A stretch of 64,000 nucleotides of DNA, from contig NZ_JACKUK010000023.1 in the NCBI RefSeq assembly GCF_025822765.1, positions 1-64,000 of the forward strand. Reading direction: 5' to 3'. The notes beneath the pieces are model-generated. The model did not search any database and was not told the origin of the DNA. It worked only from the letters and a program-made list of their open reading frames with translations. Below are positions 15,409-20,661 of this stretch, one piece after another. The stretch is from Mycobacterium barrassiae. Lineage in GTDB: Bacteria > Actinomycetota > Actinomycetes > Mycobacteriales > Mycobacteriaceae. The translations under genes were made by a program, and so were the position numbers. Each line of letters begins with the position of its first letter. Positions within the stretch are counted from its first letter, which is position 1.

Positions 15409-16425
15409 TTAGAAGAGCGTGGGTTGCAACGCCTCGGCGCAGTCGACGGCCGGAGCCGCTGCGGCACGAAACGGCCGACGGTCGGGCGCCAGGCCGTGCT
15501 TGGCGATGAGCGGAGTCACCCTGTCGTGCAGCATCTTCTTGTAGTCCGACGGCAGATACGCTCCGCGACCGTACAACTCGCGATACACCGCGACCAGTTC
15601 GGGATGCGACCGCGCCAGCCACGCCATGAACCACCCGCGCGTCGACCCCCTCAGGTGCAGTCCGAACGCCGTCACCCCCGTCGCTCCCACCGCGGCGATC
15701 TCACCCAGCAGCGCATCGAGATGCGCCACGGAGTCCGTCAGGTGCGGCAGGACCGGCGCCACCATCACGTGGCAGTCCAGCCCCGCCTCGCGCACCGCGG
15801 AAATGAGCCCGAGGCGGGCCTGCGGTGTCGGCGTCCCCGGTTCGACGTCCTTGTGCAAGTCGGGATCGCCGACGGCCAGCGACACCGCGACACTCACGTC
15901 GACACGCCGAGCCGCCTCCGTGATCAGCGGCAGATCGCGACGCAACAGCGTGCCCTTGGTCAGGATCGAGAACGGCGTACCGGAATCGGCAAGCGCCGCA
16001 ATGATTCCCGGCATCAGCGCGTAACGCCCCTCGGCGCGTTGATACGGATCGGTGTTGGTACCGAGCGCGACGGTCTCCCGCTGCCACGACCGTCGCGACA
16101 GCTCGCGCCGTAGCACCTCGGCCACGTTCGTCTTCACCACGACCTGCGTGTCGAAGTCCGCGCCCGGGTCCAGATCCAGGTACTCGTGGGTGGGGCGCGC
16201 GAAGCAGTAGCGGCAGGCGTGCGAACAGCCGCGGTAGCCGTTGACGGTGTACCGGAACGGCAGCATCGCTGCGTTCGGCACCTTGTTCAACGCTGACTTG
16301 CACAGGATCTCGTGGAACGTCATCCCCTCGAACTGTGGCGACCGAACGCTGCGGATGAAGCCCATCCGCTGCAGACCGGGCAGCGCGCCGTCGTCGACGC
16401 CCACCCCCTGGCCGTCCCACCGCAT
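15409..16425 (-). CDS. Radical SAM protein, Rv2578c family
   Basis: 338 residues from ATG 16425. The [4Fe-4S]/SAM signature CxxxCxxC is GCSHACRYCFAR, followed by a TIM-barrel pattern (TVALGTNTDPYQRAEGRY, FSILTKGTLLRRDL, VAVSLAVGD). The family resembles spore-photoproduct-lyase-like Rv2578c proteins; the reaction is unknown. A perfect mycobacterial SOS box ends 8 bp upstream of the start, so the gene is probably LexA-repressed and induced by DNA damage, as I recall for the M. tuberculosis orthologue. A role in DNA repair or nucleotide modification is inference. Confidence 0.88.
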   Translation of the reverse strand: MRWDGQGVGVDDGALPGLQRMGFIRSVRSPQFEGMTFHEILCKSALNKVPNAAMLPFRYTVNGYRGCSHACRYCFARPTHEYLDLDPGADFDTQVVVKTNVAEVLRRELSRRSWQRETVALGTNTDPYQRAEGRYALMPGIIAALADSGTPFSILTKGTLLRRDLPLITEAARRVDVSVAVSLAVGDPDLHKDVEPGTPTPQARLGLISAVREAGLDCHVMVAPVLPHLTDSVAHLDALLGEIAAVGATGVTAFGLHLRGSTRGWFMAWLARSHPELVAVYRELYGRGAYLPSDYKKMLHDRVTPLIAKHGLAPDRRPFRAAAAPAVDCAEALQPTLF

Positions 16426-16456: not shown

Positions 16457-17689
16457 TCAAGGCAACGACGCCCCGGCGCCCACGCCGCTGACGGCATCGA
16501 CCAGTAGCTTCGCCGCGACCGCCGCACCATCGCCGCGGATCGTGCCGGCCACCTCCGCGGCCCGCGCGCGTACATCCGGGGCCAGTGCCGTGGCGAGCGC
16601 AGCGGACAACGACTCGCGCGTCGGATTCGCGCCGTCGTGCGCCGCCCCGATCCCCAGTGCGGCGACCCGGCCGGCCCAATACGGCTGATCAGCGATCTGC
16701 GGCACCACCACTTGGGGCACCCCTGCCCGCGCCGCCGTCGTCGTGGTGCCCGCCCCACCGTGATGGACGACGGCCGCGACCCGTGGGAACAGCGCCTGGA
16801 GGTTGACCTCGCCGATCACCAGGCAGTCGTCCCGATCGTCGATCGGTTCCAAGTCGGCCCAGCCGCGCGAGATCAGCACGCGGTGGCCCTGTGCGCGGAT
16901 CGCCTCGACGGCCACCGAGGCGACGTCCTCCGGCGCCCGCACGCTGCTGAAGCCCACGTACACCGGCGGAGTGCCGGCCTCGAGGAACGCGGTCAGCTCT
17001 GCGGGCAGCGGACGGGTGTCGGGCAGGATCCACGCGCCCGTCTGCACGACGTCGAAGTCGGGCGAACCCGGCCACGGCGCGAGGATCGGGTCCGCCGCGA
17101 GCCACGGTCGGTCGGTGTGGACGTGATCGCGGACGTTGTCCACCGGCGGTAGCCCGAGCGCCGCCCGGTGCGCGTTCAGCGGAGCGCCATAGAGCGCCTG
17201 CACACGTTCAGCGTCGACCTCCCACAACTCCTTGTTCGTCGCGCTCGGCGGGAACGGGCGGCCGGGCCGCGACAGAGGCGTCTGATGCGGCGAGGGCAAC
17301 ACGCCCGGCATGAACGCCACACACGCGTAGTAGATGCCGAGAGACTCGGCGATCGAGCGCTGGCCGGCAGGCATCAGGCCCGTCGCCACGATCGCGTCGC
17401 AACCCTCTGCGGCGGGCGCTACCGTCTCGAACTGACTGGCCACCAATTCGGCCGCCACGCGCGGCGCGTCGGCGGGCGTCGACGGCTTGTTGCCTGCACC
17501 ACCGTGCACCAGCGCCCGCACTGACTTTCCGGCCGCCCTCATCGGGACACCGATGCGCGCGGCCTGCTCCGCGAAATCAGGTGGCGCGCAGAGGAGCACA
17601 TCGACGCCTCGTGCTTGCAACTGCACCGCCAAGGCGAACATCGGCTCGACGTCTCCGCGCGACCCCCACGTCGACAACAACACTCGCAT
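16457..17689 (-). CDS. rgt: Glycosyltransferase, probable rifamycin-inactivating (Rgt-like)
   Basis: 410-residue GT-B fold, family 1 (MGT-type) enzyme. The N-terminus MRVLLSTWGSRGDVEP is the typical acceptor-domain start, and HHGGAGTTTTAARAGVPQ at 309-326 is the nucleotide-sugar binding block. The ATG at 17689 is used because homologues begin MRVLLSTWGSRGD; an in-frame ATG at 17743 would add 18 residues. This group includes Rgt, which glucosylates the ansa-chain hydroxyl of rifamycins. The RAE-like palindrome in the leader supports that role. It could instead glycosylate another lipophilic metabolite. Confidence 0.72.
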   Translation of the reverse strand: MRVLLSTWGSRGDVEPMFALAVQLQARGVDVLLCAPPDFAEQAARIGVPMRAAGKSVRALVHGGAGNKPSTPADAPRVAAELVASQFETVAPAAEGCDAIVATGLMPAGQRSIAESLGIYYACVAFMPGVLPSPHQTPLSRPGRPFPPSATNKELWEVDAERVQALYGAPLNAHRAALGLPPVDNVRDHVHTDRPWLAADPILAPWPGSPDFDVVQTGAWILPDTRPLPAELTAFLEAGTPPVYVGFSSVRAPEDVASVAVEAIRAQGHRVLISRGWADLEPIDDRDDCLVIGEVNLQALFPRVAAVVHHGGAGTTTTAARAGVPQVVVPQIADQPYWAGRVAALGIGAAHDGANPTRESLSAALATALAPDVRARAAEVAGTIRGDGAAVAAKLLVDAVSGVGAGASLP

Positions 17690-17746
17690 TTCCGGCCCCC
17701 CATTTCGGCTGGTTACTTCGTTGGGTTGCCGATTGTGCGCCATGAC

Positions 17747-17769
17747 GGGGGTCTTGCGGCAAGACCCCC
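17747..17769 (-). promoter_or_regulatory. Rifamycin-associated element (RAE)-like palindrome
   Basis: GGGGGTCTTG-CGG-CAAGACCCCC has perfect 10-bp arms. Its inner 19 bp match the RAE consensus as I remember it (GGGGCTTGCGGCAAGGCCC) except for one compensating base pair. RAEs precede rifamycin-resistance genes (arr, rph, rgt, rox, helR) in actinobacteria. Here it lies 58 bp upstream of the glycosyltransferase start. Confidence 0.8.
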
Positions 17770-17773
17770 ACTG

Positions 17774-17779
17774 CGCTAT
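17774..17779 (-). promoter_or_regulatory. Possible -10 box for the glycosyltransferase
   Basis: TATAGC on the minus strand would place the transcription start about 6 to 7 nt on, at the edge of the RAE-like palindrome, which would then be transcribed as a hairpin at the very 5' end of the mRNA. No convincing -35 is visible. Confidence 0.35.
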
Positions 17780-17791
17780 ATGTTGAAAGTG

Positions 17792-17819
17792 GAAGGGGTT
17801 CGTACACCCCTTCTTTTTT
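17792..17819 (+). terminator. Rho-independent terminator-like hairpin
   Basis: GAAGGGGT and ACCCCTTC pair around a 6-nt loop (17792-17813) and run into TTTTTT (17814-17819) on the plus strand. No plus-strand gene ends here, so it would stop antisense or small-RNA transcription. On the minus strand it may instead be an operator-like dyad upstream of the RAE. Confidence 0.55.
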
Positions 17820-17853
17820 GTTGTCTCCCTTGGGGACTACGTGATCGCGGGAC

Positions 17854-18261
17854 TTACCAGCGACCGAGCTGGCAGAAGGCCGTGGTGGGACCCGTGTTCT
17901 GCACAGCCAACTGGCCGTCGACCCAGATCTCGCAATGCGCGTTCGGCGGAGCCTCCATGGCATGGCCTGCGCGAGCCACGCTGATGTACGCCCACTGCGG
18001 ATCGGTGAGCGTCACGGTGCTCTCCCACGGCACCACGAAGCTGCCCCGCGTCGAGTAGGCGGCGGCGTCGGCGTTGAAGGCCTTGAGGTCCGCGGGCGAA
18101 CTGGTCACATAGTTGATGTCGAAACTCAGCGGTGCGTCCGCGGTGACGACGTACTTGACGTTCGGTTCGGATGGCTGCGCGTTCCCCGTAGCTTGACTGA
18201 CCGCAAGTGAACCTGCCGCCAGCACCAGCGCGGCCCCGACCATGGATATCGCTCTTCGCAT
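17854..18261 (-). CDS. Small secreted protein, MmpS-like C-terminal domain
   Basis: 135 residues. The N-terminal signal peptide (MRRAISMVGAALVLAAGSLA) is followed by a beta-rich domain: VKYVVTADAPLSFDINYV, a PWESTVTLTDPQ strand and CEIWVDGQLAVQN with a late second Cys (AFCQLGRW), suggesting one disulphide. This resembles the extracytoplasmic domain of MmpS-family proteins, but there is no adjacent MmpL. The start at 18261 is chosen because it begins the signal peptide. The function is unknown. Confidence 0.7.
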   Translation of the reverse strand: MRRAISMVGAALVLAAGSLAVSQATGNAQPSEPNVKYVVTADAPLSFDINYVTSSPADLKAFNADAAAYSTRGSFVVPWESTVTLTDPQWAYISVARAGHAMEAPPNAHCEIWVDGQLAVQNTGPTTAFCQLGRW

Positions 18262-18371
18262 GTTGGTCACATCGCCGCACCGTACCCGACCGTTACATGG
18301 ACGAAAGATCGGCTCCGGCGGTACCCACCAACGGCAAACCAACACCTGTCTGCCTACAGGTTAATTTGTTC

Positions 18372-18503: not shown

Positions 18504-19769
18504 ATGCGATTACCACGACGCTCCTCGGTGAGAAGGTCGGCGCTTGCGACGGGAAGCATCCTCGCCGCGAGCGCGCTGCTGCTGGCGGGCTGCGGTAGCA
18601 AAGCGACCGAATCCGATTCGGCAAGCGCGGAGTCGTGCGTGGACACCTCGGGTCCGACGATCAAGGTGGGCTCGCTGAACTCGCTGTCGGGAACGATGGC
18701 GATCTCCGAAGTGACGGTGCGCGACGCCATCGCGTTGGCCGTCGAGCAGATCAACGAAGCCGGCGGTGTGCTGGGCAAGCAGATCCAGATCATCGGTGAG
18801 GACGGCGCCTCGGAGCCGACGGTGTTCGCCGAGAAGGCCGAGAAGCTGATCAGCAGCGACTGCGTGGCCGCGGTGTTCGGCGGGTGGACCTCGTCGAGCC
18901 GCAAGGCGATGCTGCCGGTGTTCGAGAGCGCCAACGCGCTGCTGTACTACCCCGTCCAGTACGAGGGTCTGGAGTCGTCGAAGAACATCTTCTACACCGG
19001 CGCCACGACCAACCAGCAGATCGTGCCCGCGTTGGACTACCTGAAGGAAAAGGGCGTCAAGTCCCTCTACCTCGTCGGCAGTGACTACGTGTTCCCGCAG
19101 ACGGCCAACCGGATCATCAAGGCCTACGCCGAGGCCAACGGCATCGAGATCAAGGGTGAGGACTACACCCCGCTGGGCTCGACGGATTTCTCGACCATCG
19201 TCAACAAGGTCCGCACCGCCGACGCCGACGCCGTGTTCAACACGCTCAACGGCGACTCGAACGTGGCGTTCTTCCGCGAGTACAAGAACGTCGGCCTGAC
19301 GCCGCAGGCAATGCCCGTGGTGTCGGTGTCGATCGCCGAGGAAGAGGTCGGCGGCATCGGTGTCCAGAACATCACCGGCCAGCTGACGGCCTGGAACTAC
19401 TACCAGACGATCGACACCCCCGTGAACGACGCATTCGTCAAGGCCTACAAGGCCAAGTACGGCGCCAACAAGCCGACCTCGGATCCGATGGAGGCGGCCT
19501 ACGTCTCGGTGTACCTGTGGAAGAACACCGTCGAGAAGGCGAAGTCGTTCGACGTGGCGGCGATCCAGGAGAACGCGGGCGGTGTCACGTTCGATGCGCC
19601 CGAGGGCCTCGTCACCATCGACGGCGAGAACAACCACATCACCAAGACGGCACGCATCGGCGAGATCCGCCCGGACGGCCTGATCTACACGATCTGGGAG
19701 TCGCCCGGACCCATCGAGCCGGACCCGTACCTGAAGTCGTACCCGTGGGCCGCCGGCCTCTCCGGCTGA
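18504..19769 (+). CDS. urtA: Urea ABC transporter, substrate-binding lipoprotein
   Basis: 421 residues. The lipoprotein signal peptide has lipobox LLLAGC, so it is anchored outside the membrane. A periplasmic-binding fold of the Leu/Ile/Val class follows ([65 protein letters not shown]). The [10 protein letters not shown] and YPVQYEGLE segments are typical of UrtA rather than amino-acid binding proteins. It is first gene of urtABCDE. The transporter imports urea, usually when nitrogen is scarce. No urease gene is in this window. Confidence 0.93.
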
Positions 19770-19776
19770 TTCGGGT

Positions 19777-20661
19777 ATGGATGTTCTGATCGGGCAGCTG
19801 GCAACGGGATTGAGCCTCGGCTCGATCCTGTTGCTGGCTGCCCTCGGGCTGTCGCTGACCTTCGGCCAGATGGGCGTCATCAACATGGCGCACGGCGAGT
19901 TCATCATGGCCGGCTGCTACACCGCGTACGTGGTGCAGCAGATCATCTCCAGTGCCGGTGCGTCCCTGTTGATTTCGTTGATCGTCGGCTTCTTCGTCGG
20001 CGGCGCGATGGGCGCACTGCTGGAAGTCACCCTGATCCAACGGATGTACGATCGGCCGCTGGACACGTTGCTGGTGACGTTCGGGGTGGGTCTGGTCCTG
20101 CAGCAGATCGCTCGCGACATCTTCGGTGCGCCCGCGGTCAACGTCGTTGCCCCGGTGTGGTTGTCGGGTGGCGTGGAGATCTTCGGGGCCGTGGTTCCCA
20201 AGACCCGCATCTTCATCCTCGTGCTCGCCGTGGCGTGTGTGGCGGCACTGGCCACCGCGCTGAAAGTCAGCCCGATGGGTCGTCGCATCCGGGCGGTGGT
20301 GCAGAACCGCGACCTCGCCGAAACCAGCGGTATCTCGTCCCGTAAGACCGACATCACCACGTTCTTCATCGGCTCGGGGTTGGCGGCCGTCGCGGGTGTC
20401 GCGCTGACGCTCATCGGTTCGACGAGTCCGACGATCGGGCAGAGCTACCTCATCGACGCGTTCCTGGTGGTCGTGGTCGGTGGGCTTGGCCAGATCAAGG
20501 GCACCGTCATCGCGGCGTTCTCCCTTGGGTTCTTGAACTCGTTCATCGAGTACAACACCACCGCGTCGCTGGCCAAGGTGATCGTGTTCGTGATCATCGT
20601 GGTCTTCCTGCAGGTCCGCCCGCAGGGCCTGTTCACCGTTCGCACAAGGAGTTTGGTGTGA
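19777..20661 (+). CDS. urtB: Urea ABC transporter, permease UrtB
   Basis: 294-residue LivH-type permease with about eight membrane helices. LSLTFGQMGVINMAHGEFIMAG near the N-terminus and the FLVVVVGGLGQIKGTVIAAFSLGFLNSFIEY loop near the C-terminus are family marks, and IEYNTTASLAKV is typical of UrtB. It starts 7 bp after urtA and its TGA overlaps the urtC GTG. It forms the membrane channel with UrtC. Confidence 0.93.
   Translation: MDVLIGQLATGLSLGSILLLAALGLSLTFGQMGVINMAHGEFIMAGCYTAYVVQQIISSAGASLLISLIVGFFVGGAMGALLEVTLIQRMYDRPLDTLLVTFGVGLVLQQIARDIFGAPAVNVVAPVWLSGGVEIFGAVVPKTRIFILVLAVACVAALATALKVSPMGRRIRAVVQNRDLAETSGISSRKTDITTFFIGSGLAAVAGVALTLIGSTSPTIGQSYLIDAFLVVVVGGLGQIKGTVIAAFSLGFLNSFIEYNTTASLAKVIVFVIIVVFLQVRPQGLFTVRTRSLV

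Follow-up and report, generated by a model that had tools for sequence, protein, structure and literature searches.

In the sections on the rifamycin-associated element (RAE) in a 2026 paper (PMC12802891) and a 2022 review (PMC10719064), the mechanism of this element and any regulator that acts on it are presented as still to be found. According to part of that review, the helD gene of M. smegmatis, which is reported to be rifamycin-inducible, has two sense promoters: P1, which starts ~20 bp upstream of the RAE, and P2, whose −35 region lies over the RAE; deletion of half of the RAE abolishes helD induction (PMC10719064). HelD is not named in the main-text sections of the M. smegmatis start-site paper (PMC6448022). 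In the helD/pps alarm of B. subtilis, as set out in part of the 2026 paper, two convergent promoters are separated by 39 bp, and regulation is lost when this distance is cut by 17 bp (PMC12802891).

The current analysis dealt with a 64-kb stretch of Mycobacterium barrassiae DNA (positions 1 to 64,000 of its contig, referred to below as the window), in which an RAE precedes a gene for a glycosyltransferase, and with RAE loci from many other genomes. The comparison suggests that the RAE is the center of a mirror-image pair of predicted promoters, one of which faces the gene, while the other one, referred to here as averted, faces away from it.

The Rgt-type gene and the RAE in the window

The gene for the family 1 glycosyltransferase of the Rgt type occupies positions 16457 to 17689 on the minus strand (410 amino acids and a stop codon), as called from its model match and from the starts of its relatives, which begin at the same codon as ATG 17689. 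The open reading frame around it extends from 16457 to 17743; the in-frame ATG at 17743 sits upstream of the gene-facing −10 box proposed below and is an unlikely start for the glycosyltransferase. The top NCBIfam model for this protein is NF000354 (Rgt), with 513 bits over residues 1 to 404 versus 75 bits for the runner-up, which bears out the Rgt-type assignment made in the initial annotation. The score is below the curated Rgt equivalog cut-off of 800 bits, as are those of nine further family members scanned (338 to 697 bits; the RAE core is exact in eight of these and relaxed in one). The Pfam matches are EryCIII-like_C and Glyco_transf_28. In a tree of 79 rows, the window enzyme falls inside a mycobacterial clade of 11 rows (support 100/97), all 11 with the exact RAE core, and it shares about two-thirds identity, in the best segment, with its nearest Streptomyces relatives. 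Judging by these matches, the gene product is probably a rifamycin-inactivating enzyme of the Rgt type and, because such an enzyme sits under an RAE, the gene is probably a rifamycin-inducible resistance gene.

The glycosyltransferase gene is followed by an Rv2578c-type radical SAM gene (15409 to 16422, minus strand). On its other side, a small open frame without a match to any family (17837 to 18280, minus strand) lies just upstream of the RAE region and reads in the same direction. Beyond this frame, the plus strand encodes a substrate-binding protein (Peripla_BP_5) and a branched-chain-type permease (18504 to 20661). No match to Arr was found in the organism's own genome.

The leader of the glycosyltransferase gene contains a 19-bp dyad at 17749 to 17767 (no strand; GGGTCTTGCGGCAAGACCC), so placed that a gene of a rifamycin resistance family, Rgt, lies downstream. 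It is identical in 17 of 19 positions to the RAE 19-mer (GGGNCTTGCNGCAAGNCCC) that was used as the query; the two differing positions make up the ±6 pair. The perfect dyad reaches beyond the 19 bp, covering 23 bp from 17747 to 17769 (GGGGGTCTTG CGG CAAGACCCCC), exactly as reported in the initial annotation, and the window contains no other dyad with 10-bp arms around a 3-nt loop. In the same genome, there is one exact RAE (0 mismatches), upstream of a helR gene whose product scores 1209 bits against the solved HelD. When up to 3 mismatches are allowed, the reversed control pattern matches as well (1 and 4 times), so that three-mismatch matches are at chance level; the only genome sites better than that are the one in the window (2 mismatches) and the one upstream of helR.

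Conservation upstream of related genes provides a stronger test of RAE identity than mismatch counts. A scan of the genome collection with the window protein returned 79 loci, of which four were set aside because their match starts elsewhere than at the start codon. Of the 75 loci kept, 59 carry TTGCNGCAA within the 400 nt that precede the start codon, mostly at a distance of 57 to 72 nt, and 7 others have, at a fitting place, a match within 2 of 17 positions. The dyad at 17747 to 17769 is a true RAE, as proposed in the initial annotation; the second half of that proposal, a compensated change of one base pair, did not hold up (see below). The other 9 of the 75 loci have no RAE upstream; they are two further loci and seven Glycomyces ones (L049, L051, L055, L058, L060, L063, and L075, without an RAE within 400 nt), whose enzymes are sister to the mycobacterial clade in the tree and whose genes, on this pattern, may have lost the element. 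In four other loci (L038, L052, L054, and L056), the variant core CTTGCTTCAAG stands upstream of rgt instead of CTTGCNGCAAG. The label of L052, Mycobacterium sp. KBS0706, may be wrong; the tree places this locus with Phyllobacterium (80/77).

Distribution of the RAE and its mirrored promoter-like boxes

The pattern GGGNNTTGCNGCAAGNCC was detected in 132 of 201 genomes drawn from the family of the window organism and in 29 of 296 genomes drawn from its phylum; among the matches listed, the reversed control was present in 19 of the 201 and 12 of the 296 genomes, respectively. The pattern-found sites covered, 116 from among the matches listed, lie upstream of helR, rox, arr, rgt, or rph genes in 108 cases and upstream of none of these in 8. 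An RAE core is also located within 300 nt upstream in 17 of the 22 helR loci fetched by gene. One of the exceptions has only 152 nt of upstream sequence, and the helR genes L207, L217, L218, and L227 show no core within 300 nt despite at least 900 nt of upstream sequence. The element is present across Actinomycetota and Pseudomonadota and on one Gemmatimonadota plasmid. In one locus (L171, positions 1577 to 1735), the RAE is followed by a 53-codon frame with a glycosyltransferase-like beginning and then by rph, which looks as if rph stood behind the leader of a decayed rgt gene.

For the comparison of flanks, 186 strict RAE sites were collected, with 11 duplicate loci left out, and oriented by the downstream gene and not by the flanks themselves. 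They comprise 176 classified sites (64 helR, 62 rgt, 39 rox, and 11 arr) and 10 unassigned ones. Six of the latter precede rph, five according to NCBIfam matches of partial proteins and one (L187) according to its frame and sequence likeness; the other four (L092, L133, L177, and L178) have no helR, rgt, rox, arr, or rph gene behind them. The 176 sites are partly gene-selected, 57 coming from the glycosyltransferase scan, 17 from the helR scan, one being the window, and the rest coming from the RAE pattern. One locus may recur in two collections, which was handled by thinning the set to 107 clusters at 65% flank identity.

Housekeeping promoters have a −10 element of the TANNNT type, a purine start 6 to 8 nt further on, and a TTG-type −35 element upstream; TANNNT is a stronger −10 element than CANNNT. 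On the strand leaving the gene, TANNNT is found exactly 21 to 26 bp from the RAE center in 162 of the 176 sites; towards the gene, CANNNT occupies exactly the same interval in 161 sites, and both boxes are present together in 157. The polarity of the pair is fixed: TANNNT towards the gene is seen in 0 of the 176 sites and CANNNT away from the gene in 1. At other offsets within 95 bp, TANNNT occurs in 0.2% of the sites on average and in 5% at most. The thinned set gives the same picture, with the averted TANNNT in 100, the gene-facing CANNNT in 100, and both in 96 of the 107 clusters. Split by source, the classified sites with both boxes are 95 of the 101 found by the pattern, 44 of the 57 found by the glycosyltransferase scan, and 17 of the 17 found by the helR scan; the rph sites have both in 6 of 6 cases, and the four unassigned sites without a resistance gene have neither. 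Among all pattern-found sites, both boxes are present in 102 of the 108 upstream of resistance genes versus 0 of the 8 elsewhere. These totals include five pattern matches on one strand only, one of them a rox site with both boxes and the other four without either the boxes or such a gene.

In the window, the proposed gene-facing −10 is CACAAT (17732 to 17737, minus strand; +21 to +26 from the RAE center), and the corresponding −35 would be TTGCCG (17757 to 17762, minus strand), inside the RAE and separated from the conserved −10 by a 19-bp spacer. At the mirrored offset, the proposed averted −10 is TATGTT (17779 to 17784, plus strand), with its −35, TTGCGG (17754 to 17759, plus strand), also inside the RAE, mirroring the gene-facing one, and at the same 19-bp spacing. 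The initial annotation had placed a possible gene-facing −10 at 17774 to 17779; there is indeed a conserved AT-rich box there, which is better read as the plus-strand −10, with which the earlier hexamer shares a single base, 17779.

The 19 exceptions among the 176 sites are eight sites from Rhizobiales, one from Bosea, five that seem to be displaced by one or two bases (L020, L036, L074, L093, and L121), and five with one changed letter. In the helR site L093, one extra G in the left arm has moved the averted box by one base relative to the near twin L094. The Rhizobiales sites (L057, L059, L062, L065, L066, L068, L070, and L072) keep the dyad and have ATCTAA and TAGAAC (in one case, TAAAAC) in the −10 places, perhaps reflecting another register or another polymerase. 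The Gemmatirosa (Gemmatimonadota) plasmid site has TATAGT as the averted box and CAGAAT as the gene-facing one; in a Streptomyces plasmid site, TACCGT is present and the gene-facing box is missing (GAAGAT).

The alignment of the 176 sites also contains a second dyad, TGCGGCA...TGCCGCA, centered at +9.5 and running from −3 to +22 relative to the RAE center, in the spacer of the gene-facing promoter. Its paired fraction is 0.66 versus 0.37 or less at other centers, its pairs are uninformative on covariation, and its location is reminiscent of operators placed between the −35 and −10 elements.

The predicted averted start, its terminator-like hairpins, and M. smegmatis helD

The letter frequencies of the averted box over the 176 sites (T93, A93, free, G54, T69, and T94) are the hallmark of a −10 element. 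Further out, 33 and 34 bp from the RAE center and thus 7 to 8 nt past the averted −10, G is found in 91% and 92% of these sites. The window has the conserved GG at the expected distance (17791 and 17792, plus strand), where the averted RNA is predicted to start. With TATGTT, the GG start, and TTGCGG, the averted promoter of the window would fit the housekeeping type, its 19-bp spacer being long.

The predicted start is also the first position of a hairpin with a run of six T residues that resembles an intrinsic terminator (17791 to 17819, plus strand; hairpin 17791 to 17814, T run 17814 to 17819; GGAAGGGGTTCGTACACCCCTTCTTTTTT) and has a predicted folding energy of −13.9 kcal/mol. In a test of our own design, which looked for a hairpin plus a T run in the 74 nt beyond the averted box and used 20 shuffles as a control, such structures were detected on the averted strand of 43 of the 176 sites, the window among them, versus a mean of 0.35 and a maximum of 2 in the shuffles. 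The same stretch read in the gene's direction gave 2, and the sequence downstream of the gene-facing −10 gave 0. By family, the averted terminators were found in 26 of the 62 rgt, 11 of the 64 helR, 6 of the 39 rox, and 0 of the 11 arr sites, the test being negative in 133 of the 176 sites, including all 11 of arr. Copies of the element from Lysobacter carry a terminator on the averted strand.

In 35 of the 43 terminator-bearing sites, the hairpin begins 32 to 33 bp from the RAE center; because this onset coincides with the predicted start, the predicted averted RNA would be hardly more than a terminator. Since the promoter runs straight into the terminator in these 43 of 176 sites, the averted RNA there would be only ~30 nt long. 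The upstream neighbors point both ways, so that the averted promoter would have no fixed neighbor to serve: of 160 sites callable by a rough GC3 criterion, the neighbor reads the gene's way in 80, away from it in 66, and unclearly in 14. No description of an averted promoter at the RAE was found in the open-access literature surveyed.

The helD gene of M. smegmatis itself was not found in the genome collection. The nearest locus is L226, whose product is 94.8% identical to the solved HelD chain, which comes from M. smegmatis, over the first 97 residues of that chain. Matched by distance only, GTACCCT and CAAAAT of L226 fall where P1 and P2, respectively, would be expected, and the published P2 agrees with the gene-facing −10 found here.

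Proposed mechanism, its rivals, and known systems

The preferred reading, to which we assign a probability of roughly 55%, is that the RAE is the shared center of back-to-back promoters of the housekeeping type, with an averted decoy that would hold the gene for a rifamycin-type glucosyltransferase off until rifamycin appears. The RAE would overlap the −35 regions of both divergent promoters, and the polymerase would use one of them at a time because both need the RAE as their −35 region. The stronger-looking TANNNT promoter would face away and yield only a terminated RNA of ~30 nt, leaving the weaker-looking CANNNT promoter to drive the gene. With no drug, the polymerase would be drawn to the averted decoy and the gene would be off; with rifamycin, promoter use would move to the gene-facing arm. 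A protein that responds to rifamycin, is widespread, and binds to the RAE dyad would most likely be needed for this shift. Such a regulator is proposed because a rifamycin-arrested polymerase on the decoy should further block the gene-facing promoter, and a bound protein is likely because the RAE arms are nearly invariant, beyond the needs of a −35 hexamer. From the mirrored boxes with their fixed polarity, the conserved GG, and the terminator in a subset of sites, all of which the site comparison shows, we infer that both promoters are active and rival each other and that a regulator tips the balance between them when rifamycin is present. If true, the mirrored pair with its decoy arm would provide a testable handle on rifamycin sensing by RAE genes.

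Several points speak against this model. The 19-bp spacers are longer than usual, and the conservation of the RAE arms goes far beyond the −35 hexamer, which promoter competition alone would leave unexplained. The second, sense reading of the left box described below, the terminator-negative majority of sites, the deviating boxes of the Rhizobiales and Streptomyces plasmid sites, and the helR genes that lack an RAE also weigh against it. No regulator gene common to the RAE loci was seen among seven neighbor proteins from four Proteobacteria-type loci or among the scanned neighbors in the window. Of the seven proteins, two have no family match, four match families of other kinds, and one resembles a sigma factor (Sigma70_r2, Sigma70_r4_2, and DUF6596); this last one is encoded at L056:4272-5687 on the minus strand, beside a Mesorhizobium relative of rgt.

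The sensor could instead be the RNA polymerase itself, with rifamycin hitting the busy averted promoter harder and freeing the gene-facing one without any transcription factor. This possibility, which we hold to be doubtful, stays alive because no common regulator gene was seen adjoining the element and because the element is shared by Actinomycetota, Pseudomonadota, and one Gemmatimonadota plasmid. The fixed TANNNT/CANNNT polarity fits it too, and so do, as far as the cited sections go, the published precedents of two promoters with unequal traffic, B. subtilis helD/pps and the tandem rpoBC promoters of M. smegmatis (PMC12802891, PMC10719064). However, the RAE promoters are divergent and overlapping, so that an arrested polymerase should block both, whereas the B. 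subtilis pair is convergent, and the near-invariant arms suggest a bound protein. An RAE-binding shared regulator is therefore ranked as more likely than a polymerase-only sensor. In its strictest form, the RAE would be a self-contained, factor-free rifamycin sensor, whose averted decoy, with its terminated ~30-nt transcript, reads the state of the polymerase and frees the gene-facing promoter upon drug binding; this form is unlikely, and if true, it would explain how one cassette of ~60 bp comes to stand before five unrelated resistance genes in several phyla. Another tentative reading dispenses with averted transcription and makes the RAE only an operator for a rifamycin-responsive activator or repressor, with the left AT-rich box as a second sense promoter or a regulator site. 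A regulator at the RAE is the supposition published in parts of both sources (PMC12802891, PMC10719064). A tandem sense promoter is possible because the left box also fits CANNNT on the sense strand, at an offset larger by one base, in 152 of the 176 sites. The sense promoter P1 reported for M. smegmatis helD in part of the review (PMC10719064) points the same way, its relative L226 having a G-preceded TACCCT at the matching distance. Yet in no group does a sense −10 at the place of P1 rank among the seven most frequent offsets, and without averted transcription there would be no purpose to the terminators on that strand or to the GG where the averted RNA would start.

The initial annotation also suggested that the mRNA might begin with the palindrome, which could then act as an RNA hairpin, and the minus-strand transcript across it does fold well (predicted energy, −19.1 kcal/mol). 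This is very improbable: the conserved gene-facing −10 (17737 to 17732 in the window) lies downstream of the palindrome, so that the gene-facing transcript would lack it. Nor do the variable pairs of the arms lend support to an RNA stem. The ±6 pair, the most variable one within the 19 bp and the one taken earlier for a compensated change, is Watson-Crick in 38 of the 176 sites versus 30 expected by shuffling and is unpaired in 138, and the ±9 pair does not covary either (151 paired versus 152 expected); most of the remaining pairs never vary in the 176 sites and are uninformative on covariation. As ±6 is so often unpaired, with no covariation, the dyad is best taken as a feature of the DNA. 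Finally, the glycosyltransferase might act on another substrate, such as a glycopeptide, or be promiscuous, making its link to the RAE incidental. Its score below the Rgt cut-off would allow this, as would its nearest solved structures, GtfB, GtfA, and GtfD, which are glycopeptide enzymes. A promiscuous antibiotic glycosyltransferase, Ngt-1, is known from part of another source (PMC13214531). This reading is quite unlikely, given that a search with nothing but the RAE pattern led to sites upstream of helR, rox, arr, rgt, or rph in 108 of 116 cases.

The preferred reading, the mirrored promoter pair with an averted decoy, has partial parallels in known systems. Similarly to the helD/pps alarm of B. 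subtilis, as presented in part of its description (PMC12802891), a stronger-looking antisense promoter and a weaker-looking sense promoter stand before a rifampicin resistance gene; unlike that alarm, the boxes at the RAE are divergent with overlapping −35 regions and do not converge over ~39 bp. Overlapping divergent switches, such as the one of the pLS20 conjugation genes in the portion of the work that describes it (PMC4207663), also have promoters that share DNA, between which the polymerase must choose, but one arm of the RAE pair would serve no fixed gene and, in a subset of sites, would stop at once. The window protein resembles Rgt1438 in having NF000354 as its best family match over the full length and in having an RAE upstream; it differs in its score, 513 bits versus the cut-off of 800, and its putative activity is assigned by the family model. 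With the known RAE of the helR, rox, arr, rgt, and rph genes, the element of the window shares the sequence, the position, and the families of the downstream genes; whereas the literature describes a 19-bp palindrome, here this palindrome appears as the center of a mirrored promoter pair of ~60 bp.
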